A DNA stretch of 32,837 nucleotides. It comes from Caldilineaceae bacterium (GTDB lineage Bacteria; Chloroflexota; Anaerolineae; Caldilineales; Caldilineaceae). Positions 3,833 to 20,770 of this stretch are shown one piece after another; within the stretch, counting starts at the first letter, position 1, and each line of letters opens with the position of its first letter. Both the position numbers and the translations under genes were made by a program. The notes under the pieces were generated by a model. The model did no database searches. It saw nothing but the letters and a program-made list of their open reading frames with translations, and was not told the DNA's origin. The DNA is taken from positions 1 to 32,837 of the forward strand of contig JAHDWG010000023.1 of NCBI GenBank assembly GCA_023384495.1. Direction: 5' to 3'.

Positions 3833-3891
3833 GTCGAATGGTTCATGGGGTAGGTGCGATTGGATTGCAAAGTCACTTTGTTACAGATGCA

Positions 3892-4338: not shown

Positions 4339-4416
4339 GGTTCACCTCGCTTCATGCAGTCATGGTGGGGTTTGCCAAAGAACAACGACCGGATGCAATC
4401 TTGCGCTTGTCTATGT

Positions 4417-5085
4417 TCAACGTGGCCCAATGCCCTGGGCATGAAGAAAGTCACGCAGCCAGACCCGGCCCCGGCTCAGCCGTGACTTGACCGTGCCCAC
4501 GGGAATGCCCAAAATCTCCGCCGCTTCTTCGTATTTGTAACCCTGGACATCACAGAGCACGACCACCATGCGCTGGTCTGCCGGCATCATGCGCAGCCCA
4601 CGTTCGAGCCAGGCGTGAACCTCCATCCGCTCGGCATGGCTGTCGGGACGCTCGGCAGGGTCGATCAACAACGCCGTGTTCTCATCGGCGAGGGTGAATG
4701 CGTCGAGGCTAGCGGTGCGCCGGTTGCGTCGTTCGCGCAACAGATCATAACAGGTGTTGGTGACGATGCGTAAAAACCAATGTTTGAAGCGGCCACTCCG
4801 AAAAGAGGGCAGCGCCCGGTATGCCTTGAGCAGTGATTCTTGCACCACATCGGCGGCGTTCTCTTCGTCGTGGAGGATGCGATAGGCTACGGCATAGGCC
4901 GGCCCTTCGACTTCACGCACAAGCTCGTTGAAGGCGTCAATATCACCCGCAAGCACACGAGCGATCACACGCATGGTCGCCCGGCAACGGGCATCGGGCG
5001 GCTCATCGCCGCTGGGGATCGCCGCAACGGAATCATCAACACTCCAATTGGGGGTCAGGGGGGTGGCTTGTGGGCCATACACCAT
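4417..5085 (-). CDS. ECF-type RNA polymerase sigma factor
   Basis: This 222-residue sigma-70 family protein has only regions 2 and 4. Region 2 spans about 50-120, with the core-binding stretch AADVVQESLLKAYR near 77-90 and the -10 recognition part FKHWFLRIVTNTCYD near 100-114. Region 4 spans about 155-214, with the helix-turn-helix EAAEILGIPVGTVKSRLSR near 187-205. An N-terminal extension of about 45 residues is not part of the core domain. The ATG at 5085 is supported by GGGAGG ending 8 bases upstream. No anti-sigma factor or zinc-finger membrane protein is adjacent; the downstream gene is an SRPBCC protein. The gene is divergent from the GH127 enzyme, sharing a 191-bp control region. The family call is firm; the regulon is unknown. 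Confidence 0.92.
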   Translation of the reverse strand: MVYGPQATPLTPNWSVDDSVAAIPSGDEPPDARCRATMRVIARVLAGDIDAFNELVREVEGPAYAVAYRILHDEENAADVVQESLLKAYRALPSFRSGRFKHWFLRIVTNTCYDLLRERRNRRTASLDAFTLADENTALLIDPAERPDSHAERMEVHAWLERGLRMMPADQRMVVVLCDVQGYKYEEAAEILGIPVGTVKSRLSRGRVWLRDFLHAQGIGPR

Positions 5086-5190
5086 GCTTGCATCCTCCCG
5101 GTTCGGTTTGGCGCACTTTGCTCATCTTTACTGTCATCGCCATTGAACCACGCAATCGGCGCGTGGCGGTGGCGTTGAGCGCCACACAAC

Positions 5191-5199
5191 TGGTACAAT
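5191..5199 (+). promoter_or_regulatory. Extended -10 promoter element before the GH127 gene
   Basis: TG-G-TACAAT is an extended -10 match (5 of 6 in the hexamer). A TTGAGC lies upstream but only 13 bp away, too close for a standard -35. The predicted leader is about 70 nt and contains the dispersed repeat at 5227-5253. Confidence 0.4.
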
Positions 5200-5226
5200 G
5201 AGCGTCACAACCATATGGAGCCTGTA

Positions 5227-5253
5227 CGCAACCGTCATTCGCATGGGTTCTTA
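5227..5253 (+). repeat. Dispersed short repeat, copy 3
   Basis: CGCAACCGTCATTCGCATGG followed by GTTCTTA. It is related to the copies at 62-87 and 432-457 and ends 23 bp before the GH127 start codon, inside its predicted leader. Confidence 0.45.
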
Positions 5254-5276
5254 GCGTTCGCGAGGGAGCACCCACC

Positions 5277-7118
5277 ATGCCATACCCGTTATTGCACCGT
5301 TCCACCGGCGCCCGCGTTGCCTTTCAGGGCTACCTGGCCGACTATCTGCGCGGCGTCAGCGAGCAGTGGCTGAAAATCGCGCCGGACGCCAACCCGGCCA
5401 TGCTCGAAATGTTTGCCGACCGCAACCGCCACCCGCTGCGCGACCTGGTTCCGTGGGCCGGTGAGTTTGCCGGCAAATATCTGACCGCAGCCACGCAGGT
5501 GTTGCGCCTCACCCATGATGAAGCGCTGCGCGCCCGGCTTGCCGAGTTCGTCAACCAACTGACTGCGCTGCAAGCCGAAGATGGCTACCTCGGCCCCTGG
5601 CCACATGGCTACGAGCTCAGCGGCAGAGCGCCACAGCTTCAGCACCCCACATGGGACGCCTGGGGGCACTATCACAACATGCTCGGGTTGCTGCTCTGGC
5701 ATGAAGAGACGGGCGACGAGAAGGCGCTCGACGGCGCACGCCGTATCGGTGACCTCTTCTGCGCTCGCTTCTTGGGGGCGACGCGGCCTCGCCTGGTGGA
5801 TACGGGGGCCACCGAGATGAACCTGGCGCCGGTTCACGCATTGGCGCTGCTGTATAAGGTCACCGGCGCTGGGCGCTACCTCGATCTCGCGCTTCAGCTT
5901 GTCGGCGAATTCGCCGCCGAAGATGAGGCCGGCCAGCCGCTAGCCGGTGACTATCTGCGGGCGGCGCTGGCGCGGCGCGAGTTTTTCGAGACGCCCAAGC
6001 CACGTTGGGAGAGCCTGCATCCCATTCTGGGGCTGGTTGAACTCTACTATCTGACGGGTGAAGAACGGTATCGCCAGGCCTTTGAGCACTGGTGGTGGAG
6101 CATTGTCAAGCTGGACCGGCACAACAACGGCGGCTTCTCATCGGGCGAGCAGGCGCAGGGTAATCCCTACCATCAGGGCGCGATTGAAACGTGCTGCACC
6201 ATCGCCTGGATCGCGCTAAGCGTGGAGATGTTGCGGCTGACCGGCGACCCCGTTGTGGCCGACGAACTGGAGCTTTCAACCCTCAACTCGGTGGTCGGGC
6301 TACACTCGGCCACCGGGAGGTGGGCCACCTACAATACGCCCATGGATGGGGTGCGCAAGGCCAGCGCACACGATATTGTTTTTCAAGCCCGGGCCGGCTC
6401 GCCCGAGCTGAACTGTTGTAGCGTCAATGCAGCGCGCGGCTTTGGCATGATCAGCGATTGGGCGCTCATGCACGATGACGAAGGGCTGGTGCTAAACTGG
6501 TATGGGCCTGGGCGCATGTCGGCCACCTTGCCATCGGGCGCAGCCGTGCAGCTTGTGCAGATGACTGATTACCCACGCACGGGCGTGGTCCGCCTTCATG
6601 TGGAGATGGCCGAGCCGGAGGCGCTGACGCTCAAGCTGCGCATCCCCTTCTGGTCCACCGAAACGCAAGTGCGTGTCAACGGCGAACCAGTGAGCGGGGT
6701 GGCGCCCGGCGCCTATTTGCGGCTACGAAGAGAATGGGTGGCAACAGATCTGGTCGAAATCGACCTCGACTTTGCGCCCCACTTTTGGGTGGGGGAACAG
6801 GAGTGCGCCGGGTTGACGTCGGTCTATCGCGGGCCGGTATTGCTCACCTACGACCGTCGCTTCAACGATTTCGACCCCGACGACATCCCTACACTCGACG
6901 CCCGCACCCTGGCCGGCGAACTGGCCCCCTGGCAGGGTCGGCTCGAACCGGTGCTATTGTGGGCGGTGGATACAGCCGACGGACGCATACTCCACCTCTG
7001 CGACTTTGGCAGCGCCGGCGAGGGGGGGACGCCCTACCGCTCATGGCTGCCTGTGCAGGGCGTAGAGCCGACTCCCTTCAGCCGGGCGAATCCATTGCGC
7101 AGCGGGCGGCCCGGATGA
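5277..7118 (+). CDS. GH127-type (DUF1680) beta-L-arabinofuranosidase
   Basis: This 613-residue protein has the family plan: an (alpha/alpha)6 barrel (about 10-400) followed by beta-sandwich domains. Characterised GH127 enzymes hydrolyse terminal beta-L-arabinofuranosyl residues using a zinc-bound cysteine nucleophile. The equivalents are visible: E304 and C306 in AIETCCT, and the adjacent pair C380-C381 in ELNCCSVN, with spacing close to the Bifidobacterium HypBA1 set (E338, C340, C417, C418). By that match C380 is the nucleophile. There is no signal peptide, so it probably acts on imported oligosaccharides in the cytoplasm. GAGGGAG about 9 bases upstream supports the ATG. No sugar transporter or other glycosidase is adjacent. 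The family also contains enzymes with other specificities, so the substrate is provisional. Confidence 0.85.
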   Translation: MPYPLLHRSTGARVAFQGYLADYLRGVSEQWLKIAPDANPAMLEMFADRNRHPLRDLVPWAGEFAGKYLTAATQVLRLTHDEALRARLAEFVNQLTALQAEDGYLGPWPHGYELSGRAPQLQHPTWDAWGHYHNMLGLLLWHEETGDEKALDGARRIGDLFCARFLGATRPRLVDTGATEMNLAPVHALALLYKVTGAGRYLDLALQLVGEFAAEDEAGQPLAGDYLRAALARREFFETPKPRWESLHPILGLVELYYLTGEERYRQAFEHWWWSIVKLDRHNNGGFSSGEQAQGNPYHQGAIETCCTIAWIALSVEMLRLTGDPVVADELELSTLNSVVGLHSATGRWATYNTPMDGVRKASAHDIVFQARAGSPELNCCSVNAARGFGMISDWALMHDDEGLVLNWYGPGRMSATLPSGAAVQLVQMTDYPRTGVVRLHVEMAEPEALTLKLRIPFWSTETQVRVNGEPVSGVAPGAYLRLRREWVATDLVEIDLDFAPHFWVGEQECAGLTSVYRGPVLLTYDRRFNDFDPDDIPTLDARTLAGELAPWQGRLEPVLLWAVDTADGRILHLCDFGSAGEGGTPYRSWLPVQGVEPTPFSRANPLRSGRPG

Positions 7119-7156
7119 AACTTCCTGTTGAAGAGTTCCCACGGGGTTTCTCCAAC

Positions 7157-8332
7157 TCAATTGACCCCGGCCAGGTCTGGCTCTTTGTTGTCCATCTCGA
7201 CGAACTTGCCGGTGACGGTGTAGATGATTCGCTCGCAGATGTTGGTGGTGCGGTCTGCGGCGCGCTCCAGATTGTGCGCCGCCCATGAGAGATAATTGGC
7301 GTGGTCGATAAGCTTGGGGTTGGCGACGATGATGTCGATCAGCTCGCGATTGATCGTGTTGTAGAGCGCATCGACCTCGTCATCCTGGTTGGGGATTTGG
7401 CGCGCCTGCTCCACATCCTGCGCCACAAACGCATCGAGCGAAGCGCGCAACATACGGACGACAATGTCGCACATCTGGGGCATATGCACCAGCGGCTTGA
7501 CCAACGGCTCGCGCCCAATGTAGAGCGTAATACGCGCAATGCCCTTGGCGTAATCACCGATGCGCTCCAACTCGGAGGCGATCTCCAGGATGCCGGCAAT
7601 CAGACGCATGTCGCGCGCCATGGGCTGCTGCGTGGCGATCAGCGTCAGACACGCATCCTCAATGGCGTAGCGCTTCTGGTTGATCAGCCGATCATCGGCG
7701 ACCAACTGGCGCGCCTGGTCGAGATTCTGCGCCTTTAGGATTTCGATTGAACTGTGTAGCGCCTGACAAACCACACTGCCCATGAGCAATAGTTCGTCTT
7801 GTAGACGCCGCAATTCTTGCTGATAGTGCACTCGCATGGAACTCTCCGTCCCGGACGGGCGACCGGGCAGCGTGATGGATGATGGAGAAGCGCTGGCCTG
7901 ACCGGCAGGCGGAAACGCTTGTTGCAAATATAGTAACACACTTTTCCGAATTTTGTCACGCACGCGCCGAAAGACCTTGAGCTGCTCGTCGAGGCGACCG
8001 CTGGCCAGGGCCGGGTCTTCAAAGCCAATATGCACCTTTTTCCCCTTGCCCAACCAGACGGGACAATTCTCGGCGGCATCGTCACAGACGGTGATCACTA
8101 GGTCAAAGTCCTGGCCCACAAACTCCTCGGTGGACTTGGAGCGGTGGCGCGAGAGGTCGATCCCAAGTTCGGCCATCACCTCAATCGCCAGCAGATGCAC
8201 ATAGCCCGAAGGTTTGGTGCCCGCCGACTGGGCATGCCACTGGTCGCCGAGAAAGTGGTTGATCAGCCCCTCCGCCATTTGGCTACGACAGGAGTTGCCC
8301 GTACAGAGGATGAGAACGCGTCGTTTGGTCAT
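7157..8332 (-). CDS. arsC-phoU: Arsenate reductase-PhoU fusion protein
   Basis: This 391-residue protein joins two usually separate functions. Residues 1-140 are a thioredoxin-coupled arsenate reductase of the low-molecular-weight phosphatase fold. It has the P-loop CTGNSCR with C10 and R16, the redox pair C83 and C90, and acid D106 in EDPA, matching C10, C82, C89 and D105 of the staphylococcal enzyme. A linker rich in Pro, Ser and Gly (about 141-165) leads to PhoU (166-391), with both three-helix repeats and the acidic motifs ELERIGD and NLERAAD. PhoU restrains the Pst transporter and PhoR signalling when phosphate is ample. There is no stop codon between the domains. A Shine-Dalgarno (GGAGAG) sits 4 bases before an in-frame ATG at 7837 (M166), so free PhoU may also be made. 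It is the last gene of the pst operon, 6 bp after the aquaporin. Confidence 0.93.
   Translation of the reverse strand: MTKRRVLILCTGNSCRSQMAEGLINHFLGDQWHAQSAGTKPSGYVHLLAIEVMAELGIDLSRHRSKSTEEFVGQDFDLVITVCDDAAENCPVWLGKGKKVHIGFEDPALASGRLDEQLKVFRRVRDKIRKSVLLYLQQAFPPAGQASASPSSITLPGRPSGTESSMRVHYQQELRRLQDELLLMGSVVCQALHSSIEILKAQNLDQARQLVADDRLINQKRYAIEDACLTLIATQQPMARDMRLIAGILEIASELERIGDYAKGIARITLYIGREPLVKPLVHMPQMCDIVVRMLRASLDAFVAQDVEQARQIPNQDDEVDALYNTINRELIDIIVANPKLIDHANYLSWAAHNLERAADRTTNICERIIYTVTGKFVEMDNKEPDLAGVN
7835..7847 (-). promoter_or_regulatory. Internal ribosome binding site and ATG for PhoU alone
   Basis: Within arsC-phoU the minus strand reads GGAGAG (7847-7842), TTCC, then ATG (7837-7835), in frame with the fusion and exactly at the start of the PhoU domain. 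It suggests either a second translation product or the relic of two genes fused by loss of a stop codon. The 4-nt spacing is short but workable. Confidence 0.5.
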
Positions 8333-8338
8333 TGGGCT

Positions 8339-8989
8339 TCACTGCTCCTTTCGAGTCAGGCCAAATCCACCCACCGCCAGCGCAGCGCCGAGCAACGGCG
8401 CCACCATATAGAGCCACAGCGCCGCCAGATTGCCAGACACGAGCGCAGGCGCCAGTGAGCGCGCCGGGTTCATGGATGCGCCTGTAACTGGCCCGCCAAA
8501 GAGCGCATCGAGACAGACTGTGGCGCCGATGGCCAGCCCAGCGGTAATCCCGCGTTCTTTGGCGCCCGTCGCCACATGGATGATGACAAACATGAGAAAA
8601 AAGGTCAACACAATCTCCAACAAGAAGGCGGCCCAGATCGCCACAGATGGCGCCGGTATGGTGGCCCCAAGCGTAGCGTCGCCGGGGAATGCGCCCCGCA
8701 ATGTGAGGCTGGCAAGCAACGCGCCGGCCACCTGGCTACCTACATACGGCGCCACCTCTCGCAGAGGGAAGCGCCCCGCCAGCCAAAAGCCAAACGTGAC
8801 CGCGGGATTGAAATGCGCCCCTGAGGTTTCGCCAACTGCATAGATCATCACCATGACCACTAGCCCAAAGGTAAGCGCAATGCCTACGTGCGTCACCGCG
8901 CCCTCGCTGGCCGCATTGACGACAATCGCGCCAGTGCCGGCAAAGACCAGTGCAAAGGTCCCTACAAACTCCGCCCAATATCGATTCAT
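8339..8989 (-). CDS. Aquaporin (MIP family channel)
   Basis: This 216-residue inner-membrane channel has six hydrophobic segments and both pore motifs, HFNPAV (NPA at 61-63) and MNPARS (NPA at 174-176). Aligned by eye to E. coli AqpZ, the selectivity positions are F41, A162, A171 and R177. The His that narrows water-specific pores is Ala here, which suggests a wider pore that could pass small neutral solutes such as As(OH)3 or glycerol (inference). It lies between pstB and the arsC-phoU fusion. A comparable pairing of aquaporin and ArsC in Sinorhizobium meliloti (AqpS) exports arsenite produced by arsenate reduction. I chose the ATG at 8989, which gives the usual N-terminus MNRYWAEFVGT; an in-frame GTG at 8998 would add three residues. 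Neither has a strong ribosome site. Confidence 0.9.
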   Translation of the reverse strand: MNRYWAEFVGTFALVFAGTGAIVVNAASEGAVTHVGIALTFGLVVMVMIYAVGETSGAHFNPAVTFGFWLAGRFPLREVAPYVGSQVAGALLASLTLRGAFPGDATLGATIPAPSVAIWAAFLLEIVLTFFLMFVIIHVATGAKERGITAGLAIGATVCLDALFGGPVTGASMNPARSLAPALVSGNLAALWLYMVAPLLGAALAVGGFGLTRKEQ

Positions 8990-9085
8990 AACCACCACAA
9001 GCTCATTAGATGACAGATGGATGTCGGATCAAACCACCTGTGTTTGATGCAACCATTGTTGATGTGAAAGCAGCAACTGCGCCTC

Positions 9086-9901
9086 TTAACCAAAGCGGCC
9101 CGTTATATACTCTTCAGTCTTTTTGTGTTGCGGGTTGGTGAAGAGCTGCTTGGTGGAGCCGAATTCCAACAAGTGGCCGGTGCGATGTTCGTCGACCATA
9201 AAGAAGGCGGTATAATCTGAGACGCGCGCGGCCTGCTGCATGTTGTGCGTCACGATGATGATGGTGTAACGCTCGGCCAGTTCCTTCATCAGGTCCTCGA
9301 TCCGGAGTGTGGCGATGGGGTCTAGCGCCGAGCATGGCTCATCCATGAGGATGATGTCGGGGCGGGTGGCGATGGCGCGGGCAATGCAGAGCCGCTGCTG
9401 CTGGCCGCCGGAGAGGCTGTATGCGCTCTGGTTAAGCTTGTCCTTGACTTCATCCCACAGGGCGGCGGCGCGCAGCGATTGCTCGACCAGCTCGTCCATG
9501 TTGCCCCGAAAGCCGTTGACCCGCGCGCCCCAGGCAATATTCTCGTAGATCGACTTGGGGAAGGGGTTGGGCTTCTGAAAGACCATGCCGATCCGCCGTC
9601 GCACCTCAACTGGGTCAACCTGCGGGTCGTAAATGTTAAAATCTCGGAAACGCACCTCGCCACCCACGCGCGCCGATGACACCAGGTCGTTCATGCGGTT
9701 GAAACAGCGCAAGACGGTGCTTTTGCCACACCCCGACGGCCCGATCATCGCCGTGATCTTGTGCTCCTCAATGTTCATATTCACATCGCGCACGGCATGA
9801 AAGCCGCCGTAGTGGACGTTCAAATCAGCCGTTTCGATGATCATCTTGCCCAGATGAGTGGCTGACTCGGGTCGATCCGCCACAAATGTTGCAATTCCCA
9901 T
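9086..9901 (-). CDS. pstB: Phosphate ABC transporter ATPase PstB
   Basis: PstB is the cytoplasmic ATPase that powers phosphate import. All motifs are present: Walker [11 protein letters not shown]-loop VFQKPNPFP, signature [14 protein letters not shown], Walker [14 protein letters not shown] and switch His VTHNMQQA. The C-terminal EYITGRFG is typical of PstB. The ATG at 9901 (MGIATFVAD) has AAGGAG 11 bases upstream; the longer frame would begin with TTG at 9925 inside the pstA stop region. From the ATG the protein is 271 residues, about 20 longer at the N-terminus than E. coli PstB. It follows pstA with 20 bp between, so the two are almost certainly co-translated. Confidence 0.97.
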
Positions 9902-9921
9902 AGTAACAGACACTCCTTCAA

Positions 9922-12036
9922 TCAAAGCTGCTTGCTAAACCGGTTGCGCAGCAGGATGGCGCTGGCGTTTAGCGACAGCAACAGAACCAGCAACACTACA
10001 ATCGCCGCCGCCGCAATGTTGCGAAATTCGGGTTGGGGCCGCGAAGTCCACTGGTAGATCTGCACCGGCAAGGTGGTGAACTTCGAGAAAGGCCCGTTGG
10101 GGTCGAGCGCGACAAAGGTGGATGCGCCCACCACCACCAACGGCGCCGTCTCACCAATGGCGCGCGACATGGCGAGGATGTTGCCGGTGAGGATGCCGGG
10201 GATGGCGTTGGGCAACACGTGCGCCCAGATCACCTGCCAGCGCGTGGCGCCCAGCCCAAAACCCGCCTGGCGCAGCGAATCGGGCACGGCGCGGATCGCC
10301 TCGCGCGCATTGATGATGATCAGCGGCAGCACCAAGAGCGCGAGCGTCAGGCTGGCCGAGATGACTGTGCGCCCGTTGGCCGTGGTGGGGTCCACCGCGC
10401 CAAAGAGTTTGCCGCTGGTAAAAGGCTCAAAGGTGCGCACAAAGACGGCCAACCCCAACATGCCATAGATAATCGAAGGGACGCCGGCCAGGTTGTTGAT
10501 GTTGGTTTCGATAAAGCGGTTGACCCGGTTGTCCTCGGCATACTCCTCCAGATAGATGGCGGCGCCCACCCCCACTGGCAGCGCAAGGAGGAGTGTAAAG
10601 AGGATCACCCACAGCGTGCCCATAATGGCCGGGCGGATGCCTGCGCTCTCGGCCCTGGCGTCTTGGGGCGAGGTGAGAAAGCGCATCGAGACCCAACTGC
10701 GCCACGTAAGCTCGCCATTGGGGATCAGAGCAACGGCGGCCTCGATCTGCGGGCGGCGCAGCAATGAATCGGTAAGTGACCATGAGCGCACCGCCGTCGG
10801 CTGCACCACGCGCTCCAACACCAGCTCATAGAGATTCTCGCGCGTGCGCTCGGCAAAGGGCTGGTCATTTTCAAAACGGCGCATAAGCCCGCTGGAGACA
10901 TTGGCGGCCAAGACTTCGATCAGCGTTTCTTTGGGCAGTTCGCTCAGTTCGCGGGCGTAGACGCGCTCCACAAAGAAGTCGAGTGTGCCGCTGTCGCTGC
11001 CTGGGATATAGCGCACGATCGGCTCGTTGGGCCAGGCCGGGTTGACATCGGACCAGCGCTCCGCCGTCATAAAGACTTGACGAAGCGCATCGGCGCTCAG
11101 GTTGGTGACAAAGGTGTTCTCCCGGTGAACCACCACAGCCAGCGCGTCAAAACCCACCTCGAATTCCAGCGGCTCACGCTTGGCGCTGCGGCAGATCTCG
11201 ATTTCGGCGCGGGTGATGGCGCGGCTGGCATTGGCAATGTCCACCCCCGCGTCGTTGCAGAAACGGGCAATCCCCGCCTTGGTGCCGATGTTGTCGATCT
11301 GGACTGCGCCGGCAAAGCCGGCGGCCTGAAATTGATCGGCGGCCTGCTTCGTCAGCGGATAGACCGTGGAGCTGCCGGCAACGACAATGTCACCATCCAC
11401 AGCGCTTGGGTCTGCCAGGGGAATCACGGCGTTTTGCAGCGCGGCCTTGCCTTCGGCGATGTCGGCGTCGGTGGTCGGGAAATAGCCGACTTCGCCTGCA
11501 AGCGCTGGGGCATTGGTCAAGTAGTGATCGACAAATGCGGCGACTTGTGGCTTTTGTTGCAGAGTGGCCGCGGTCGAGTAGATATAGAGCGGGCGAGAAA
11601 GCGAGTATGAGCCGTCATCCAGTGTTGCCAAACTGGGCGTTACCCCATCCACTGCGACCAAATTGAGCTCGTCGGCGAGCGCTTGATAATAGGCATAACC
11701 GAAGAAGCCGACGGCATAAGGGTTTGCCATCACACCGGCGGCCAACTCGTTGTCGTCTTCGCTGGTGGTGATATTGAGCGCATCTAGCATATTTTGCTCT
11801 TCCACCGCCAGCACGATGGCGTCTGGGTCCACCTTGTTCTGCACAGCGACAAAGCCAAAGGCGCCATCAATAATGTTGTAAAGGAGCGCGATGAGGGCGA
11901 CGATCCCAACCAGGGTAGACGCAACAAAAACAGTATACCAAAACTGGCCACGTCGCTGACGCTCGCTGACTTGCCTCTTTGCCACTTCGCCTTCGGGATA
12001 GCCGGTCGCTTCTGGCCTGCGTGTCTCCATCGCCAT
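9922..12036 (-). CDS. pstA: PstA permease with an inserted, circularly permuted PstS domain
   Basis: This 704-residue protein compares with about 300 for classical PstA. Residues 34-60 are membrane segment 1. Residues about 470-697 carry the remaining segments and the ATPase-coupling EAA motif ([19 protein letters not shown], 578-596). Residues about 363-460 resemble the extra segment of Chloroflexota-type PstA. Between about 76 and 362 lies a whole phosphate-binding domain related to the neighbouring pstS, but in swapped order: the C-terminal half comes first (FFGYAYYQ at 111-118, KPQVAAF at 162-168, VGYFP at 183-187) and the N-terminal half second ([10 protein letters not shown] at 220-229, NASRAI at 269-274, PGSDSGT at 345-351). 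All phosphate-contact loops are intact. The domain should face the extracytoplasmic side as a tethered second receptor. The start overlaps the pstC stop by one base and has GAGGAG upstream. Permease identity is firm; receptor function of the insert is inferred. Confidence 0.95.
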
Positions 12037-13043
12037 TATTGATACTCCTCTCGGAAGCGGGCCACGAGAATCCGGCTTAGGATGTTGAGGCCAAAGGTGA
12101 TCACAAAGAGCACAAGCCCAATCGCAAAGATGCTGCTATAGTCGATGGTGTCATAACTCAAGTCGCCGCCACTGATGCGCACAATATGCCCGGTCATGGT
12201 CTCGGCGGCCACAAAGGGGTTGAGCGTGAAATTTGGCCCGGCGCCGGCGGCAATCGCCACCACCATCGTCTCGCCCACCGCGCGCGAGATGGCCACGATC
12301 ACCGCCGCCGAGATGCCAGAGAGCGCCGCCGGCAACACCACCCGCAGCGCCGTCTCTAGCCTCGTGCCGCCCAGCCCATAGGCCGCCTCGCGCAGCGACA
12401 TGGGCACCGCACGCAGGGCATCCTCGCTCATGGAGGTCACCAACGGCAAGATCAGAATCCCAATGACCAGTCCAGCCGATGCCGTGTTATAGATTTGCAC
12501 AGTCTCGTAGCCAAAAATTGTGCGCAGGAAAGGGGTCATAAAGGTCAGCGCAAAGTAGCCGTAGACAACCGTAGGGATGCCGGCCAGCACCTCAAGGATC
12601 GGCTTGAGCGCGCCGCGCACCCGAGCACTGGCATACTCGCTCAGATAGATGGCGATGGCCAATCCAACCGGCAGGGCAAAGAGCATGGCAATGAAACTAG
12701 TGACCAGGGTGGCCGTCACCAAGGACCAGATGCCAAACTGCCCGATCACCGGCTGCCAGCGCGTGGTCAAAAAGAATTCACCCAGGGTGACCTCGTCGCT
12801 CCCAAAAAAGAGCCACGATTCCCGACCCAGCACATAGATAATGCCAATCGTAGTCAACACCGAAACCGCGCCACACACAAACAGAAAACCTTGGATTAGC
12901 GCTTCGCCGATGCGGATTTTTTTGTGCAAACCCAGGTCCCCTGGTCCACCGATTGTCACGTGCGCCGCCGCTGGCTGGTCTGCCCGGCCTGGGGCGGCGC
13001 CGGCAGACGGCAGCGTGGCGGTTTCAGCTCGCAGATCACTCAC
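12036..13043 (-). CDS. pstC: Phosphate ABC transporter permease PstC
   Basis: This 335-residue inner-membrane subunit pairs with PstA to form the phosphate channel. A hydrophilic, Ala/Pro-rich N-terminus of about 40 residues precedes the first helix (about 48-72). A periplasmic loop follows, then the core helices with the EAA coupling motif ([19 protein letters not shown]). The GTG start at 13043 has AGGGAG 6 bases upstream. The stop codon overlaps the pstA start (TAATG), pointing to coupled translation. Unlike PstA, it carries no inserted domain. Confidence 0.96.
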
Positions 13044-13155
13044 GGTCCACTCCCTTTGCTATGCTGCGTTTCCAAACATACGCTTTGATCAACTGGGTTC
13101 GCAGCGCGTTTGTTCGGGTACAGCAGCCGTCCTCGCGCCCACCGTTGAAAGCATG

Positions 13156-13187
13156 ACACGTTGGGGCGCTTTGAGGCCCCAACGTGT
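13156..13187 (-). other. Hairpin between pstS and pstC
   Basis: A 12-bp perfect stem (ACACGTTGGGGC at 13156-13167 with its complement at 13176-13187) encloses an 8-nt loop, in the 179-bp gap after pstS. No T-run follows on the minus strand, so it is probably an mRNA end-protecting or attenuating structure that lets pstS be expressed above the membrane genes, rather than a full terminator. Confidence 0.5.
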
Positions 13188-13222
13188 ACATTTCAGATGC
13201 AGTTTACGGGTTCAGTACTTGA

Positions 13223-14263
13223 TTACTCGCCGAGTGCGGCAACCCAGTTCGCCTTGGCCTCGTCCAGCGCCGCCGCCGGCGCCGGGAAGTAGCCGACCCC
13301 ACGAATCTCTTCGTTGACATAGGTCAGGTAAAAGTTGATGAAGGCGGCCACCTGCGGCTTGTCTTGCATGATCTGGGCGTCCGAATAGATGAAGATTGGG
13401 CGCGCCAGCGGATAGAGGCCAGCGTCTACGTTGTCAGTGGTGGCCTCGACATCATTCAGCGTGAGGATGTCCAGCCGGTCTGCATTCTCCTGGTAGTAGG
13501 CATAGCCAAAGTAGCCAATGGCGTTGACATCGCCTTCCACACCCTGCACCAGCACATTGTCATCTTCACTCAACTGCAGATTCGCCGCGCTCAGGTGCCG
13601 CTCTTCAGCCAGCTCTTTATAAGCCGGCGTCATCACCGCTTCGACAAAGTAGTCGAATGTACCGCTGTCGGTGCCGGGAATGAAGCGCAGGATCGGCGTG
13701 TCGGGCCAGCTTGGGTCCACATCAGACCAGTTCGTGGCTTCATCCGAGAAGATGACCGCCAGTTGCTCAAGAGTGACGCCCGCGTCAAGCCAATCATTGT
13801 TGGGGTTGACCACCACAGCTAATGCATCCGTGCCGATGCGGAACTCAATGGGTTCGCGACCAATGGCGCGGCAATTCTCGACCTCGCTGTCGCGAATCGC
13901 GCGGCTGGCGTTGGAAATATCCGATTCACCAGCCTTGCAGAAGCGCTCGAAGCCGGCGCCCGTGCCGATGCTGTCGATGGTGATGTTGCCGGCGTAGCCC
14001 TCGTCGCGAAAGCGGGCGGCCACGGCCTCGGTCAGCGGGAAGACGGTGGAGCTGCCGGCGGTGATGATGTCACCCGTCACCTCCAGCGGGTTGACTTCGG
14101 GCAGTTCGCTATCCACCATCGCGGCTGCTTCAGCGGCTGGGGCTTCGGCAGGGGGCGTTGTTGCCTGGGCGGCGGGGGCGGCGGGGGCGGCGGGCGCAGG
14201 GGCCGCACAGGCCGCTACCATCAGCCCGACGAGCACCAGCAACATCAGAGCATGACGACGCAT
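13223..14263 (-). CDS. pstS: Phosphate-binding lipoprotein PstS (SphX-like)
   Basis: This is the extracytoplasmic phosphate receptor of the Pst system, 346 residues. The N-terminus is a lipoprotein signal (MRRHALMLLVLVGLMVAAC, lipid Cys at 19). An Ala/Pro linker of about 35 residues follows, then the binding domain. Phosphate-loop motifs are AGSSTVFPLT, SNASRAI and PGTDSGT; the C-terminal half has [16 protein letters not shown] and VGYFP. The same motifs, in swapped order, occur inside PstA. I chose the ATG at 14263 because it has AGAGGAG upstream and begins the signal peptide; the open frame extends 53 residues further without such support. It is first in the pst operon, downstream of Pho-box-like repeats. 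Confidence 0.96.
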   Translation of the reverse strand: MRRHALMLLVLVGLMVAACAAPAPAAPAAPAAQATTPPAEAPAAEAAAMVDSELPEVNPLEVTGDIITAGSSTVFPLTEAVAARFRDEGYAGNITIDSIGTGAGFERFCKAGESDISNASRAIRDSEVENCRAIGREPIEFRIGTDALAVVVNPNNDWLDAGVTLEQLAVIFSDEATNWSDVDPSWPDTPILRFIPGTDSGTFDYFVEAVMTPAYKELAEERHLSAANLQLSEDDNVLVQGVEGDVNAIGYFGYAYYQENADRLDILTLNDVEATTDNVDAGLYPLARPIFIYSDAQIMQDKPQVAAFINFYLTYVNEEIRGVGYFPAPAAALDEAKANWVAALGE

Positions 14264-14417
14264 ACGAATTTCTCCTCTTTTTTCACTCATTTTGTTCATG
14301 TTGGACCATTGTTCCTGTTGGGCCGCCGATTCAACAGCGCAGTGTCGATGTCCGCATACATGCGCCGATTCGGCAATCAATGCCAGAATCAATGTCAGGT
14401 AACTGTGACGCATGAAA

Positions 14418-14439
14418 AGCATAAAGGGGTTCAGTTAAC
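14418..14439 (-). promoter_or_regulatory. Candidate pstS promoter: TTAAC unit plus -10
   Basis: Minus strand: TTAAC (14438-14434), a 10-bp spacer, then TATGCT (14423-14418; 4 of 6 to TATAAT). The 10-bp gap equals that between Pho box and -10 in classical Pho promoters. The leader to the pstS ATG would be about 150 nt. Confidence 0.35.
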
Positions 14440-14477
14440 ATTGCCGTCGCCCCGCTTTAACGACCCGTCAAGGAACT

Positions 14478-14519
14478 GTAAACATTTGGTTAAGACAGCA
14501 TCGTTAACCATTTGTTAAC
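14478..14519. promoter_or_regulatory. Pho-box-like direct repeats, divergent
   Basis: Read on the minus strand, TTAAC-like units begin at 14518, 14507, 14493 and 14482 (TTAAC, TTAAC, TTAAC, TTTAC): two pairs, each with 11-bp spacing, separated by 14 bp. PhoB-family regulators bind 11-bp direct repeats. The first two units lie in GTTAAC palindromes, so they can be read in either direction, which suits a shared divergent site. Confidence 0.6.
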
Positions 14520-14667
14520 ATATACCCTCGTTTCCATAACACTTGCAAGGCATCTCCTAACATCCCCTTTACCAAACCATAATCGTTGTCTTGTATGGTG
14601 GAAGAGTGACGCATTCGGGCCTGCCACCAGCCCAGGGCGCCGCGCAGTGTGGTCTCCGTGTTGCACA

Positions 14668-14697
14668 ACTTGACCTGTAGGAACTTGACGTGAAGGA
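14668..14697 (+). repeat. 15-bp tandem repeat carrying the ribosome site
   Basis: ACTTGACCTGTAGGA (14668-14682) is followed directly by ACTTGACGTGAAGGA (14683-14697), with two mismatches. The second copy supplies the AAGGA Shine-Dalgarno of the gene starting at 14706. Confidence 0.55.
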
Positions 14698-14705
14698 AGA
14701 GAAGA

Positions 14706-15320
14706 ATGGATATGGCCGCCGTACGTGGAGCGCAACCGTTGTACAAATTGCCAAAACAGATCGAGCGCGCCCTAAACGGCGCGCTCTTGCCAGGCCGGCG
14801 CATCCTCATTGAACAGGTCGCGGCGCAGCGCACACCGAAGCGCGTCTTGGTCATCGGCCAGTGGCGTGCGGCCGATCTCGATCATATGCGCGAGTCGTTT
14901 CCCCGCGCCCGGTTTACGCTGATCGCACCAACGGCTGAGCACGAGACGGCCGGCCACACATCCCCCACTGAAACCGACGCCACGCGCTGGCTGGCCGGCC
15001 CCTACAGCCAACCGGTGAAGACAACCCACCCCTTCGATGTCGCCTTCTTGGCCTATGGGCTTGGCCGCAGCCAAATGGATGTGGACGCCATCATTACCGC
15101 CCTTCAAACCGATCTACGCCCCGGTGGCCTTGTGGCGGTTGTCGATTTCCATGACGCGCCTTTGGCGCCCATGCAGGCATGGCTGCGTCGCTGTGCAATT
15201 GAAGCGAACGGCCACCTGCTGCCAACCCTAACCACCCACTTCAAGCGCAGCACCATTGCAGTCGAGGGTGCGCACGGCGGGCTGTGGCGCTATCTTCTGT
15301 TTCTCGGTGAAAACCGTTAA
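14706..15320 (+). CDS. Methyltransferase-like protein (class I fold), function uncertain
   Basis: This 204-residue soluble protein has a Rossmann-type pattern. A first strand ends VLVIGQW (near 47-53) where SAM methyltransferases have a GxGxG motif, a later strand reads FDVAFLAYGLGRS, and LRPGGLVAVVDFHD near 136-149 is the classic post-motif of UbiE/BtaB-like methyltransferases. The SAM glycine motif is degenerate and an acidic ribose ligand is not obvious, so it may not bind SAM normally. The C-terminal part loosely recalls lipid headgroup methyltransferases, but no BtaA partner is present. It is first in a rightward operon behind Pho-type repeats, followed 26 bp later by the PHP gene. AAGGAAGAG just upstream supports the ATG. 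Fold moderately sure; activity unknown. Confidence 0.65.
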   Translation: MDMAAVRGAQPLYKLPKQIERALNGALLPGRRILIEQVAAQRTPKRVLVIGQWRAADLDHMRESFPRARFTLIAPTAEHETAGHTSPTETDATRWLAGPYSQPVKTTHPFDVAFLAYGLGRSQMDVDAIITALQTDLRPGGLVAVVDFHDAPLAPMQAWLRRCAIEANGHLLPTLTTHFKRSTIAVEGAHGGLWRYLLFLGENR

Positions 15321-15346
15321 TCCAGACAACAGCGAGCAAGCCATTC

Positions 15347-16096
15347 ATGGGAAAAGCCGACCTGCACGTCCACACAATCTACAGCTACGATGGCACCGCC
15401 ACGGTGGCCGCCACGCTAGAATATGTGAAACGTCATACCGACCTGACCACCATTGCAATCACCGACCACGACACCATTGACGGCGCGCTCGAAGCCGTTG
15501 CGCTGGCGCCCCGATATGGCATTGAGGTCATCCCCGGCATTGAGGTCACCACCGCCGAGGGGCATCTGCTCGCCCTCTTCGTACAAGCACCCATCCCCGC
15601 CGGACGTTCGCTTATCGAAACGGTCCATCTTGTGGCCGAACAGGGCGGAATCGCCATCGCCGCCCACCCAGGCGGCCCGTGGCGGTGGTGTCTACGCGAA
15701 GCGAACATCGCGGCGGCGCTGGCAGACGCGCAGATAGCCCAAACGCTAGTAGGGCTTGAGGCGTACAACGCCAGCCTGCCCAACCTGGCCCTCAATCAGC
15801 ACGCCTGCGCCATGGGACAACGATTGCCACTGGCCATGGTCGGCGCCAGCGATGCCCATATGTTATGGATGATCGGGATGGCGGCTACCTGGTTTCCCGG
15901 TGAAGGCAGCCGTGATCTCCGCACAGCGCTCGCCCATCGCACAACCACCCTGAGCGTGTCGGCGCGGCCAGCGCACTTTCTTGCCAGTTATCTGAAACAC
16001 CAACTGCTGCGGATGATGGGTTTGGCGCAATGGGCGCCCTCTACACCTGGCGCGCCGATTGCACTCCGGCGGTTGGCCGCGGTGCACCAGCCCTGA
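15347..16096 (+). CDS. PHP-domain metal-dependent phosphoesterase
   Basis: This 249-residue protein has the PHP metal-site residues in order: HVH (H7, H9), TDHD (D40, H41, D42), E66, AAHPGG (H107) and GASDAH (D169, H171). PHP proteins hydrolyse phosphoester bonds using a trinuclear metal centre. Stand-alone members include histidinol-phosphate phosphatase, nucleoside bisphosphate phosphatases and enzymes acting on short nucleic acids. The order and length fit the YciV/TrpH-like group, though the substrate cannot be fixed. A basic tail of about 50 residues follows the domain. In a Pho-box-controlled operon it could salvage phosphate from an organic ester (inference). No strong ribosome site precedes the ATG. 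Confidence 0.85.
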   Translation: MGKADLHVHTIYSYDGTATVAATLEYVKRHTDLTTIAITDHDTIDGALEAVALAPRYGIEVIPGIEVTTAEGHLLALFVQAPIPAGRSLIETVHLVAEQGGIAIAAHPGGPWRWCLREANIAAALADAQIAQTLVGLEAYNASLPNLALNQHACAMGQRLPLAMVGASDAHMLWMIGMAATWFPGEGSRDLRTALAHRTTTLSVSARPAHFLASYLKHQLLRMMGLAQWAPSTPGAPIALRRLAAVHQP

Positions 16097-16217
16097 TCTT
16101 GGTCGCCGGTCAACACGACGCCCCCACCCTGGACTGCCAGAGAGGCAAAATCAGGGGGTTTATGCGTTTCACAAGTGGGCCGAGGAACGAAGGTCCAACA
16201 AGCGAAGGGAATGGGCA

Positions 16218-17462
16218 ATGGCGCAAACAGTGGATCGGCTCTATCGGATTGCCTTTTTTGTCGAGGGGATGCACGCCAGCGAGGTGGACACAAGCACCCG
16301 CCTTCAGGCCCAGGCCCTGCGTACTCTCGGCCATCAGGTGATCATCTTTAGCCCCTGGCAAGCAACTAGCACCCGTCTACAGCCGGCTGAAACGGTGCAG
16401 TTGGCGGCCATGAGCGTGAAGTTGAAATCACGCATTGACCTGAGCTATCCGCTCTCGTGGCAGTTGTTGCGTATTTTCAAAGCGCAACCCTTTGATCTGA
16501 TCCACATCCACACCTCAACATCGGTCAATCTGCTGGCGTGGCAGATGGCCACACTCTACAAATTGCCTATCGTCTACACCTATCACACACTGTCCAAAGA
16601 ATATCTCCACTATCTTGGCTTGTTTTCGGAGCAGATGACCACGCTCTTCACCCCAATGGTAGAGTTATATGATAAAATGATCTGCGACCGGGCGGCGCTT
16701 GTGATAACGCCATCAGCCAAGGCCGCCGCCTATCTTCGCAATCTAGGAATTCAACCCGAGATACGCACGGTGCCCAACGGTGTCGATGTGGCGCGCTTTC
16801 GTCCCGGACAGTCGACTTTGCTCCAGACCGAATTCGGTGTGCCGCGTGATGCTTTCGTCTTACTTTTTGTGGGCCGGCTCAATCAGGAAAAGCGCCCGCT
16901 GCTGGCCTATGAACTCTTTCGCCACGCGGCCCACGCCCACCCCCGTTTGCACCTGGTGATGGTGGGCGACGGCGCGCTGCGACCCGTATTGGCCCAGCGC
17001 GCCCACCATGACGGCCTTGCCCAGCGCGTCACCCTGACGGGAAAGGTAGACTACGCGCAGATGCCGGGCGTTTACAACGGCGCCCACCTATGGATCTCAA
17101 CCTCGCAGAGCGAGGTCCACCCGATGGCCGCGCTAGAGGCCGCAGCCTGTGGGCTGCCAGCGGTTGCCTTTGCCGACCCGGCGCTGACAGGGATCGTCGA
17201 GCACGGCGTCAGTGGGTGGCTGGTGACGGAGAATGAAGCGTTTTTGGATGGCATTGCGCAACTTCTCGATTCGCCCGAGCGTTATGCTATGATGCAGAAC
17301 GCTGCTATTGCGCAGGCCCAACGCTATCATATCGAGGCGAGCGCACGACGGATGGTCGACTGCTATCACGAGGTAATGGCTAGCAGGGCCGCGCGCATAC
17401 CTGAAAATCGCAAACCGCGCCACCGTGGGCGACTGGATCTGCTACGAGAGTTTCGTCGATAG
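16218..17462 (+). CDS. GT4 glycosyltransferase, diacylglycerol glucosyltransferase-like
   Basis: This 414-residue GT-B enzyme has an N-terminal acceptor domain with the region FDLIHIHTS, then VYTYHTLSKEYLHY, the pattern shared with bacterial 1,2-diacylglycerol 3-glucosyltransferases. The C-terminal donor domain begins at LLFVGRLNQEKRP, and EX7E is E299/E307 in SEVHPMAALE. Related enzymes move glucose from UDP-glucose to diacylglycerol on the inner leaflet, making glycolipids that replace phospholipids when phosphate is scarce. Other GT4 acceptors such as mannosyl or phosphoinositol lipids cannot be excluded. I chose the ATG at 16218 (MAQTVDRLYRIAFF) because GAAGGGA lies about 7 bases upstream; the frame extends 53 residues further without homology. 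A 121-bp gap separates it from the PHP gene; the PAP2-like gene follows 26 bp later. Confidence 0.85.
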   Translation: MAQTVDRLYRIAFFVEGMHASEVDTSTRLQAQALRTLGHQVIIFSPWQATSTRLQPAETVQLAAMSVKLKSRIDLSYPLSWQLLRIFKAQPFDLIHIHTSTSVNLLAWQMATLYKLPIVYTYHTLSKEYLHYLGLFSEQMTTLFTPMVELYDKMICDRAALVITPSAKAAAYLRNLGIQPEIRTVPNGVDVARFRPGQSTLLQTEFGVPRDAFVLLFVGRLNQEKRPLLAYELFRHAAHAHPRLHLVMVGDGALRPVLAQRAHHDGLAQRVTLTGKVDYAQMPGVYNGAHLWISTSQSEVHPMAALEAAACGLPAVAFADPALTGIVEHGVSGWLVTENEAFLDGIAQLLDSPERYAMMQNAAIAQAQRYHIEASARRMVDCYHEVMASRAARIPENRKPRHRGRLDLLREFRR

Positions 17463-17488
17463 AGAAATGTGAAGGAAAGGCAAACCCC

Positions 17489-18121
17489 ATGATGCAACCG
17501 GCGTCGGTATTCCGTACCGACCATGACGCCACCAACTCACCTACAACCCGAAGCCGCCGTGTGGCCTACTGGGTTTCACAGATTGCCAGCCCCCCCGTGT
17601 TGGGGGTGGCTGTGACCATGGTGGCGGCCGCGGCGCTGGCTACGCCAGCGGCGTGGCTATGGTCTGTCATCTATCTTGTGTTGGCGATCGGCGTGCCCTG
17701 CCTCTACATTGTCTGGCTTGTGTGGCGCGGCGAGCTGGCGGATGTACACCTACCCGTCCGCGAGCAGCGCATTCGCCCCATGCTCTGTGCGGTGGGCGCC
17801 GCCCTGGCCGCCTGGGTGGTGCTCAATCTGGCCGCGGCCCCGCGTTTGTTGCAATCCATTGCCGCCGTCAACAGCGTGCAATCTCTGCTCTTTGTCCTCA
17901 TCACGTTGCGCTGGAAGATCAGCCTGCACACAGCCACGTCGGCAAACCTGACCGTGCTGGGGCTGGGCCTGATGGGCAGCCCCGCGCTGCCGCTGGTGGC
18001 GCTGACGCCGCTGGTGGCGTGGGCGCGCATTCAACTGCAACGGCACACACTAGGGCAAACCTTTGCAGGGGCCACGCTGGGCGCGACGCTGGTCATTGCA
18101 GCATTGTGGTATGTTGCTTAA
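17489..18121 (+). CDS. PAP2-like membrane protein with degenerate active site
   Basis: This 210-residue integral membrane protein has about five or six hydrophobic segments. Its layout matches PAP2 lipid phosphatases: REQRIRP near 90-96 where the family has KX6RP, SLH near 146-148 where it has PSGH, and ARIQLQRHTLGQ near 183-194 where it has SRX5HX3D. The key His survives, but the final Asp is Gln and other residues differ, so catalysis may be weak or altered. An active enzyme would convert phosphatidic acid to diacylglycerol, the acceptor of the preceding glycosyltransferase, and release phosphate. AAGGAAAGG upstream supports the ATG; an ATG follows immediately. The stop codon lies inside the first Pho-box unit at 18118. 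Confidence 0.65.
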   Translation: MMQPASVFRTDHDATNSPTTRSRRVAYWVSQIASPPVLGVAVTMVAAAALATPAAWLWSVIYLVLAIGVPCLYIVWLVWRGELADVHLPVREQRIRPMLCAVGAALAAWVVLNLAAAPRLLQSIAAVNSVQSLLFVLITLRWKISLHTATSANLTVLGLGLMGSPALPLVALTPLVAWARIQLQRHTLGQTFAGATLGATLVIAALWYVA

Positions 18122-18171
18122 CATACTCTTAACTTGCCGTTGTGACTGCGTTAACAACAGCCAATTACACT
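18118..18171 (+). promoter_or_regulatory. Pho box of four 11-bp units with -10
   Basis: Units start at 18118, 18129, 18140 and 18151: TTAAC, TTAAC, TTGTG, TTAAC, each followed by 6 bp, exactly 11 bp apart. TACACT (18166-18171; 4 of 6 to TATAAT) begins after a 10-bp gap, the spacing of classical Pho promoters where PhoB replaces the -35. A start site near 18178 is predicted. The first unit overlaps the stop codon of the PAP2-like gene. Confidence 0.65.
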
Positions 18172-18177
18172 GTGGAT

Positions 18178-18300
18178 GGTTGCGCAGCATTCTGGGGAGC
18201 TGAACACTCGCAATCCATCCTCTTTTCCAATTACCTCGATCCCACCCTCCTTCACACAGGGGTGCGCCTTGTAGCCGGGCGCACCCCTGTGTATTTTTTG
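18178..18300 (+). ncRNA. Candidate phosphate-responsive small RNA
   Basis: A transcript from the Pho-box promoter would start near 18178 and end at the terminator near 18300, about 120 nt, with no open reading frame of note and no gene inside. It could also be a terminated leader that regulates phoB-phoR. Ends are inferred from promoter and terminator positions; no known RNA family is recognised. Confidence 0.35.
18254..18300 (+). terminator. Strong rho-independent terminator
   Basis: A 15-bp perfect stem (ACACAGGGGTGCGCC at 18254-18268 with its complement at 18278-18292) with a 9-nt loop is followed by ATTTTTTG. It ends the rightward operon and any transcript from the Pho box at 18118. Confidence 0.85.
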
Positions 18301-18533
18301 CACATGCGCGGGCTTGCTACACGGCGGTTGCCTTGAAAACACGCATGAGGGGCCGGCCAGGGCGGCAAAGCAACGCGCATTTTCGAGCAGAGCTGAGGAT
18401 GAATGCAGCCCGGCAGACTTGCGCGCTTGCCCCTTTGCGTGGATACTCACAGCGTGTGTGAAGGTTGCCCGGCGTCGTGGGTTGCTCTCGGTTTGACGTT
18501 GCCGGCAAACATTTTTTGATGCAGGGGGCGGTC

Positions 18534-19256
18534 GTGAATCCAAAAGTGTTGGTCGTTGAAGATGAGCCGGCGCTGGCTGATGCGCTGGAGTACAGCCTGT
18601 CGCGCCAGGGGTATGAAGTGAGCGTTGCCGGCGATGGGGTCAAGGCGCTGGAGATGGCTCGTCAGACGATCCCCGATCTGGTAGTGCTCGACATCATGCT
18701 GCCTCATCTGGATGGCTATGAGGTCTGCCGCATCCTACGCCAGGAGACAAACGCGCCGATTATCATGTTGACGGCGCGCGCCGATGAGGTTGACAAGGTG
18801 GTGGGTCTCGAAGTTGGCGCCGATGACTACCTGACCAAACCCTTTAGTATGCGCGAACTGATTGCCCGCGTCAAGGCGCTGCTGCGCCGCGTCCGTCTCG
18901 ACCGTGAAGAGATGGCGACGACCAGCACCCCCAATGGTCACCCCGATGTGCCCACCGAGCGTATGGTTTTTGGCGACCTGGTCATCGATCTGAGCCGTCG
19001 CGAGGTTTCATTTGGCGGGGGGGCGTTCCATCTCAAACCAAAAGAGTTCGACCTTCTGGTCTTTCTGGCGCGCAACCGGGGCATCGTGCTCAGCCGAGAC
19101 CTGATCCTCGAACGGGTGTGGGGCTGGGACTACGACGGCGGCAGCCGCACGGTGGATGTTCACGTGCGCTGGCTGCGCGAAAAGATCGAAGCGGACCCCG
19201 CCAACCCCACACGCCTGGTCACTGTCCGCGGGATCGGATACCGGTTTGAGGGGTGA
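18534..19256 (+). CDS. phoB: PhoB-type response regulator (OmpR family)
   Basis: This 240-residue transcription factor has a receiver domain (about 4-120: E9, D10, phosphoacceptor D53, T80, K102) and a winged-helix DNA-binding domain (about 140-238), with the recognition region ending [15 protein letters not shown] and RGIGYRFEG at the C-terminus. This is the PhoB/RegX3 arrangement. Phosphorylated by the kinase encoded next door, it should bind the 11-bp TTAAC repeats here and at 14478-14519. I chose the GTG at 18534 because AGGGGG lies 5 bases upstream; an in-frame ATG at 18519 lacks a ribosome site. The phosphate role is inferred from the pst operon, the Pho-type repeats and the PhoR-like partner; the family itself is certain. 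Confidence 0.88.
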
Positions 19257-19272
19257 GCTTTGAAACCAAGAT

Positions 19273-19301
19273 TTGACAGATTACAAGAATCATTGTATTC
19301 C
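19273..19301 (+). promoter_or_regulatory. Possible separate promoter for the phoR-type kinase
   Basis: A perfect TTGACA (19273-19278), a 17-bp spacer and a weak TATTCC -10 lie in the 113-bp gap between the regulator and kinase genes. The weak -10 keeps confidence low. Confidence 0.3.
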
Positions 19302-19369
19302 AGTAGAGGTCACAGATGGTCGTCTTCGGAACCGACCTCGTCGAATAGAAGAAACACAGCCCAACCAAA

Positions 19370-20770
19370 ATGCTTCACTCACCGCGCCTGCGGTGGCGCA
19401 CCGCATTCTCCTATGCCGTCGTCATTGCCCTGATCCTCACGGGGTTGACCTATTATCTCTCTGCGCGGTTTGACATTCCGCCAGGGCAAGCTGCGCGCCC
19501 TGTGGCAGTGGCCGGCCTGTTGATTTCTGGGTTGATGGTCTTCCAGGCCGAGCGTGCGGCGGCCACCGTGCGCCGGCTTACGCTAGTGGCGCATCGCATT
19601 GCCCAAGGCGACCTGGATGCGCGCATCATTTCGTTGAGCAGCGGCGAGATCGGCCAGCTTGCCCGTGCGTTCAACCGTATGGCCGACCGGCTGCAAAAAC
19701 AGATCGAGAAGCGCAACCGCGAGCGAGACCGGCTGGACACGGTGCTCCACGCGCTGAACGATGGCGTGCTGATCATCAACCGCCATGGCGAGGTTCGGCT
19801 GATCAACAGTGCGGCCGAACGCATCCTCCAGGTGACAGCCACCGTCGCACGCGACCGCACCTTTATCCAGGCGGTGCGCGACCACCGCATCGTCGAGGTT
19901 TTTCAGCGTTGCCTGCAGAGCGGGCATGAAGAGAACGCCATGTTGGAGCTTGAGGGCGGACGGATGCTGCGCGTGGCGGCGACGCCCTTTCTCCGTGGGC
20001 GGCAGCGCGGGCATGTTGTCATCCTACAAGATTTGACGCAGCTCTACCAGTTGCAGACTGTGCGCCGCGATTTCATCAGCAACATCTCTCACGAATTACG
20101 CACACCCGTCGCCTCGCTGCGCGCCCTGGTCGATACCCTGGCCGACGGCGCGATCGATGACCCGCCCGCCGCCCAACGCTTCCTTTCTCGTATGGATGTA
20201 GAAGTGGAGGCCATGGCGCAAATGGTGCAAGAGCTATTGGAGTTGGCGCACATTGAGTCAGGCCAAACACCGCTGCGGCTACGCGAGTTGCCCGCCACCG
20301 AGGTCGTTGGCCCAGGCGCTGAACGGCTTCGCCCCCAGGCCGAACGGGCGGCCATTTCATTGACCATCGACTCACCGGAAAAGCTGCCTTCGATTGTGGT
20401 AGACCCGGATCGCATCCAACAGGTCATGGCCAATCTCGTGCAAAACGCGATCAAGTTCACCCCTGCCGGGGGCGCTATCCACGTCCAGGTAGAGCATCAC
20501 CCTGACCGAGGCGAATTGGTGGTTGCCGTGTGCGACACAGGCGCGGGCATTGCGCCCGATGATCTCTCGCGAATCTTTGAGCGCTTCTACAAGGCCGACC
20601 GCGCCCGCTCGGGGGAAGGCGCCGGCCTGGGATTGGCGATTGCCAAACACATTGTGCAGGCGCACGGTGGGCGGATCTGGGCCGAGAGCACTTATGGCAA
20701 AGGCAGCAACTTCTATTTCACCCTCCCCACCACGTCTCCGGCAGAGGTCCCCATCGCCCCCGCCGTATGA
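19370..20770 (+). CDS. phoR: PhoR-type sensor histidine kinase
   Basis: This 466-residue inner-membrane kinase has two hydrophobic segments (about 12-31 and 44-58) with almost no extracytoplasmic loop. HAMP (about 60-113) and PAS (about 122-225) follow, then the phosphotransfer domain with H241 in SHELRTPVASL and an intact ATPase domain (NLVQNAIKFTP, CDTGAGI, GAGLGLAIAK). The short loop, PAS domain and lack of an external sensor fit PhoR, which reads phosphate status through contact with Pst and PhoU rather than a ligand. The partner regulator ends 113 bp upstream. The ATG has no clear Shine-Dalgarno. Phosphate function is inferred from context. Confidence 0.87.
   Translation: MLHSPRLRWRTAFSYAVVIALILTGLTYYLSARFDIPPGQAARPVAVAGLLISGLMVFQAERAAATVRRLTLVAHRIAQGDLDARIISLSSGEIGQLARAFNRMADRLQKQIEKRNRERDRLDTVLHALNDGVLIINRHGEVRLINSAAERILQVTATVARDRTFIQAVRDHRIVEVFQRCLQSGHEENAMLELEGGRMLRVAATPFLRGRQRGHVVILQDLTQLYQLQTVRRDFISNISHELRTPVASLRALVDTLADGAIDDPPAAQRFLSRMDVEVEAMAQMVQELLELAHIESGQTPLRLRELPATEVVGPGAERLRPQAERAAISLTIDSPEKLPSIVVDPDRIQQVMANLVQNAIKFTPAGGAIHVQVEHHPDRGELVVAVCDTGAGIAPDDLSRIFERFYKADRARSGEGAGLGLAIAKHIVQAHGGRIWAESTYGKGSNFYFTLPTTSPAEVPIAPAV

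Follow-up and report, generated by a model that had tools for sequence, protein, structure and literature searches.

The phoB-like gene in the 32,837-nucleotide stretch of Caldilineaceae DNA analysed here (the window) is preceded by a Pho box, a -10 hexamer at the spacing typical of its family and then a strong terminator, with no gene in between. We propose that this is an autoregulatory promoter of phoB-phoR whose leader is interrupted by the terminator about 120 nt in, giving a Pho-induced short RNA while limited read-through caps the feedback, a reading in which our confidence is about evenly balanced. Judged from the DNA sequence, the promoter probably makes a short RNA, with only a trickle of transcription reaching phoB.

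Results

A Pho promoter upstream of phoB

The Pho box (18118..18156, + strand) can be read directly as four units at 11-bp spacing: TTAACA at 18118, TTAACT at 18129, TTGTGA at 18140 and TTAACA at 18151. It is followed by a -10 hexamer, TACACT (18166..18171, +). The original prediction described four exact units with the -10 at a canonical 10-bp gap. The spacing is indeed exact, but only units 1, 2 and 4 match TTAAC, unit 3 (TTGTGA) being degenerate; the hexamer is present, but lies 9 bp from the last TTAACA, a gap that becomes 10 if counted from TTAAC. Unit 1 covers the TAA stop codon (18119-18121) of the 17489-18121 open reading frame, as had been predicted.

In pattern searches of the 7.6-Mb genome to which the window belongs, TTAACN6TTAACN17TTAAC has a single perfect match, the 18118-18156 box, and base composition predicts about 1e-5 occurrences per genome of the three-unit pattern combined with TANNNT. 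The shorter TTAACN6TTAAC occurs seven times, three of them inside the window: an overlapping pair, one match on each strand, upstream of pstS and a single match upstream of phoB. Taken together, a putative PhoB-activated promoter before phoB is strongly supported and, in our view, convincing.

Further boxes of this genome lie ahead of pstS and of genes for a second PBP_like_2 (phosphate-binding-type) protein, for an ABC permease and for a metallo-beta-lactamase-fold protein, a set that appears consistent with a phosphate regulon. Those of the divergent pst operon, in which pstS and pstC were named by profile match, share the motif and lie at 14433..14518 (-). In this pstS promoter the Pho units form two or more blocks, one directly after the other, and TATGCT follows the final block at gap 9. 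Because this -10 overlaps the start of the longest ORF (14422), pstS itself probably begins at a more internal position.

A rule for Pho promoters in the family

A search of 46 genomes of the window's taxonomic family with the three-unit pattern, allowing at most one mismatch, gave 75 distinct boxes, which were aligned. They share the architecture of the window's box, and unit 3 is degenerate throughout. TANNNT follows the last unit at gap 9 in 16 sites (8 genera) and at gap 20, one more 11-bp unit, in 12 sites (8 genera); the mean for other gaps is 0.9, with the exception of gap 27, whose 12 sites all belong to one genus. Since many of these sites are orthologous, the genus counts are the safer figures. 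The window promoter, with TACACT at gap 9, fits the rule exactly. When three mismatches were allowed the pattern performed no better than a reversed control, so weak boxes, such as that before phoB in genome G010 (below), are only suggestive.

In Bacillus subtilis-type PhoP boxes, TT[ACT]ACA is repeated at a spacing of about 11 bp ahead of a -10. Repeat motif and spacing are the same here; what differs in the present family is the degenerate third unit and the distance of the -10 from the last matched unit, 9 or 20 bp.

Terminator-like stems of at least 12 pairs occur within 400 nt of only three of the 75 boxes, and in one of these three the stem is the 3' hairpin of a Pho-driven noncoding RNA of genus g8, described below. 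Some further sites deserve mention in their own right. At L264 (G006:C393, about 1392-1429, -), a Pho promoter with TATCAT at perfect spacing is followed by two terminator-like hairpins, at about +124 and +174 after the box, and by a wax-ester synthase/DGAT gene some 380 bp on, a layout much like that of the window. At L197 (G010:C17, box 1501-1538), TAAACT at gap 9 precedes a terminator-like hairpin of 9 pairs; about 217 bp on lies a gene whose N-terminus looks like that of the GTPase TypA/BipA. L036 (G022:C27) has a strong Pho-box-like site, TTAACA...TTAACAAAGCGTTAACA, near the phoB 3' end; it lies on the opposite strand, points towards the end of phoB and is followed by a short hairpin.

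The terminator and the predicted short transcript

An intrinsic terminator occupies 18254..18299 (+), with a stem at 18254-18292 followed by A and TTTTTT; the T run is present only in the + direction. Both the stem and the T-run had been predicted, with a stem of 15 bp where we count 16 pairs, 11 of them GC, so that a G+C-rich stem is joined to a run of U. Among 17 terminator-like sites at window positions 1-20000 it is the strongest by far; the next best has 11 pairs, and weak sites are as numerous as in shuffled sequence. No ORF of at least 60 aa starts between the -10 and the terminator, in agreement with the claim that no gene lies there.

From the positions of the -10 and the terminator, a transcript of about 120 nt is predicted (18176..18299, +), starting at about 18177-18179. 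Given how strongly promoter and terminator are supported, a short Pho-induced transcript would follow if the promoter fires. The minimum-energy fold of the predicted transcript (about 18178-18299) consists of a possible 5' hairpin (18176..18218, +) and the terminator, and its z-score of -4.0 is driven by the latter; the body alone shows no extra stability over shuffled sequence (z +0.44). We examined fold and centroid for the mutually exclusive antiterminator of a conditional attenuator, and only the terminator and the separate 5' hairpin appeared in these two structures. The transcript also holds a C/U-rich, nearly G-free unstructured linker (18211..18258, +; one G in 48 nt), which was noticed after the fact and is the only such G-poor stretch of at least 42 nt on either strand of the window. 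It would make an attractive single-stranded seed.

No Rfam match was found anywhere in the window. Pairing of the short RNA with the 22 start regions of the window gave a best z of -2.6 and nothing convincing, and pairing with the start of phoB itself was worse than in shuffles. Over 10 nt, CCTTCACACA, just ahead of the terminator, is perfectly complementary to TGTGTGAAGG in the phoB leader. This pairing was set aside, since a rough estimate puts its chance expectation at about 2% and half of it falls inside the terminator stem.

Searches with 18170-18300 returned no matches in 60 relatives; across 396 class genomes they gave nothing beyond fragments that were short or terminator-like, and no homologue of the body. 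The interval is thus not conserved at genus distance and beyond, in a comparison that includes no congener, for which reason the missing homologues do not refute a small RNA. A scan for PhoB in another genome collection gave a best identity of 68%, with no close relative there for a footprint.

Genes and repeats around the promoter

The phoB-like response regulator gene (18534..19256, +; Response_reg and Trans_reg_C domains) adjoins the pst genes. Its GTG start at 18534 lies 233 bp after 18300, exactly as predicted, with an alternative ATG at 18519. The protein matches the models for PhoB, YycF and MtrA, in each case under the cut-off, and the adjacent phoR/pnpS-like sensor kinase (19370..20770, +) has PnpS as its best NCBIfam match, then WalK and PhoR, again all below cut-off. 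The names phoB and phoR rest on these sub-cut-off matches and on the two genes being linked to pst genes and to Pho boxes.

Low-copy dispersed intergenic repeat pieces (GCTACACGGCGGTTGCCTTGAAAACACG ... GGCAAAGCAACGCGCATTTTCGAGCAGAGC; 18312..18400, +) lie between the terminator and phoB, and match five other places in the genome over 26-47 bp at 83-90% identity (partial copies in contigs C177, C585, C171, C357 and C169 of G000). No sigma-70-like promoter was found between the terminator and phoB.

The gene upstream of the box, whose stop codon overlaps it, encodes a membrane protein (17489..18121, +) with no Pfam or NCBIfam match and with homologues of 48% identity in G006 and G013. The G006 homologue has its own terminator directly after the stop codon, which means that the 18254-18299 terminator might also serve the upstream genes.

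phoB upstream regions in relatives

When the regions upstream of phoB were compared in 29 further family genomes, the majority lacked a Pho box, and autoregulation from a proximal promoter is therefore not general in the family. Two genomes, each from a different genus than the window's, do carry Pho-promoter-like sequence directly before phoB, in both cases with no terminator: G016 has TTAACG-N5-CTAACA-N9-TATACT, and G010, which encodes the closest PhoB (82% amino-acid identity), has a weaker four-unit box (three mismatches) with TAGGGT at gap 9. These two lend comparative support to reading the window's promoter as a phoB leader. In the window itself the path from Pho promoter to phoB is interrupted by the terminator at 18254-18299.

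A Pho-driven noncoding RNA in genus g8

In genus g8 of the same family, seven boxes come after a gene whose best match, GlcF, falls just short of the model cut-off, and six of the seven share downstream noncoding sequence. A covariance model built from those six sequences found the RNA in 15 genomes of genus g8 and in no other genus. In 13 species a four-unit Pho box with a -10 at gap 9 stands directly upstream of the RNA, which is about 190 nt long (L269-L281 at 1501-1700, e.g. L269:1501-1698, + strand, G036:C4:30466-30663). Across the 13 aligned sequences, 14 pairs are changed on both sides, mostly in the 5' and central helices, against a mean of 6.7 in shuffles, a count that no shuffle out of 500 reached. 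Because the sequences were aligned by fitting them to the model, these covariation counts lean towards the structure. The 3' hairpin has 16 pairs and is 94% paired. No Rfam match was found for this RNA, nor a reading frame that is open with a shared start in all sequences. In G033 and G031, weaker second matches occur about 3.3 kb from the first, and L173 (G062:C36, box 1501-1538) keeps the Pho box and -10 of the g8 RNA but lacks the roughly 170-nt body, which looks like a deletion.

Homology between the window RNA and the g8 RNA was considered and rejected, the g8 model having no match in the window's genome. Both have the Pho promoter architecture, a predicted noncoding RNA, a 3' terminal hairpin and a box soon after an upstream stop codon. 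The g8 RNA, however, is about 190 nt long, differs in sequence and is not beside phoB in the stretches examined. It does show that, in this family, noncoding RNAs are found behind putative Pho promoters.

Discussion

We favour the following mechanism for the phoB promoter of this bacterium. At low phosphate, PhoB~P would bind the four 11-bp units and recruit RNA polymerase to TACACT. Most transcripts would then stop at about 18299, at what we take to be an efficient terminator, to give the short RNA induced by Pho, and those that read through would extend into phoB-phoR, so that positive feedback is established and at the same time capped. The original prediction had offered either a phosphate-starvation small RNA or a terminated leader; the comparison with G016 and G010 supports the leader, whereas what speaks for the small RNA, the G-poor linker and the unrelated g8 RNA, is circumstantial. 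As a counterpoint to the leader model, a phoB promoter of another type could lie after the terminator and have escaped detection.

A reading we entertain tentatively is that the promoter exists to make a dedicated, trans-acting small RNA of about 120 nt, with the linker pairing to Shine-Dalgarno regions of its targets at low phosphate and phoB transcribed independently. The anatomy would suit it, with a 5' hairpin, a 48-nt C/U-rich unstructured stretch unique in the window and a strong terminator, as would the rarity of long stems behind the boxes of the family, where one of the three cases is the 3' hairpin of a conserved Pho-driven RNA. This is countered by a 5' hairpin no better than those of shuffled sequences, a body without homologue in the 396 class genomes, the absence of a convincing target among the window's start regions and the lack of an Rfam match. 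The G006 homologue, which ends in a terminator just after its stop codon, raises a different explanation: the terminator might belong to the upstream cluster (14706-18121), and the Pho box might be a former phoB promoter, stranded when terminator and repeat cut it off, with the short RNA a functionless by-product. Dispersed repeat pieces do separate the terminator from phoB. However, a relic would not be expected to be the best box of its genome or to keep exact -10 spacing, and the window's terminator lies 133 bp after the stop codon and behind the promoter; we judge this account unlikely.

That the transcript encodes a Pho-induced small protein, from a leaderless 32-codon ORF (ATG 18176 to TAG 18274), deserves hardly any weight. 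Its ATG starts 5 nt after the -10 hexamer, where the start site would sit slightly too close to the -10; its stop codon falls inside the terminator loop, and the 396 class genomes offer no homologue for a comparison of coding conservation. For the leader with a terminator, a close known parallel is E. coli phoBR, which has a PhoB-activated promoter and positive feedback limited by coupled negative feedback (PMC6194859). Both systems would drive phoBR from a PhoB-activated promoter, putative here, with positive feedback. The limit on feedback differs, being auto-repression at the promoter in E. coli and a candidate terminator in the leader in the window; the words leader and terminator are absent from that paper. 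In a limited literature search, none of the passages covered described a phoB leader that contains a terminator.

Like the RNA predicted here, several known small RNAs are linked to PhoB or to limiting phosphate, among them EsrL of E. coli, phosphate-responsive sRNAs of Sinorhizobium meliloti and sRNA1060/1062 of Pseudomonas aeruginosa, which act on phoB (PMC12351708, PMC8829014, PMC12506140). In these papers, EsrL is described as PhoB-repressed and sRNA1060/1062 as LasR-activated repressors of phoB translation, and none of the RNAs is described as the product of the phoB promoter itself.

Several implications follow. The rule of four 11-bp units, a degenerate third unit and a -10 at 9 or 20 bp provides a description of Pho promoters for a poorly studied family, apparently of Chloroflexota, and the g8 RNA is an independent, conserved and structured Pho-driven RNA in another genus of that family. 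It is conceivable, if rather improbable, that the starvation promoter of phoB has become dedicated to a phosphate-starvation small RNA, the terminator having turned an autoregulatory promoter into an sRNA gene. If so, one termination event would set both the feedback on phoB and the output of the sRNA and, together with the unrelated g8 RNA, a repeated origin of Pho-driven regulatory RNAs in the family would be suggested. More generally, self-activating two-component systems need a limit on their feedback, and a terminator in the leader would be a simple and testable one, which, placed inside an autoregulatory leader, would also yield a starvation-specific RNA for free.
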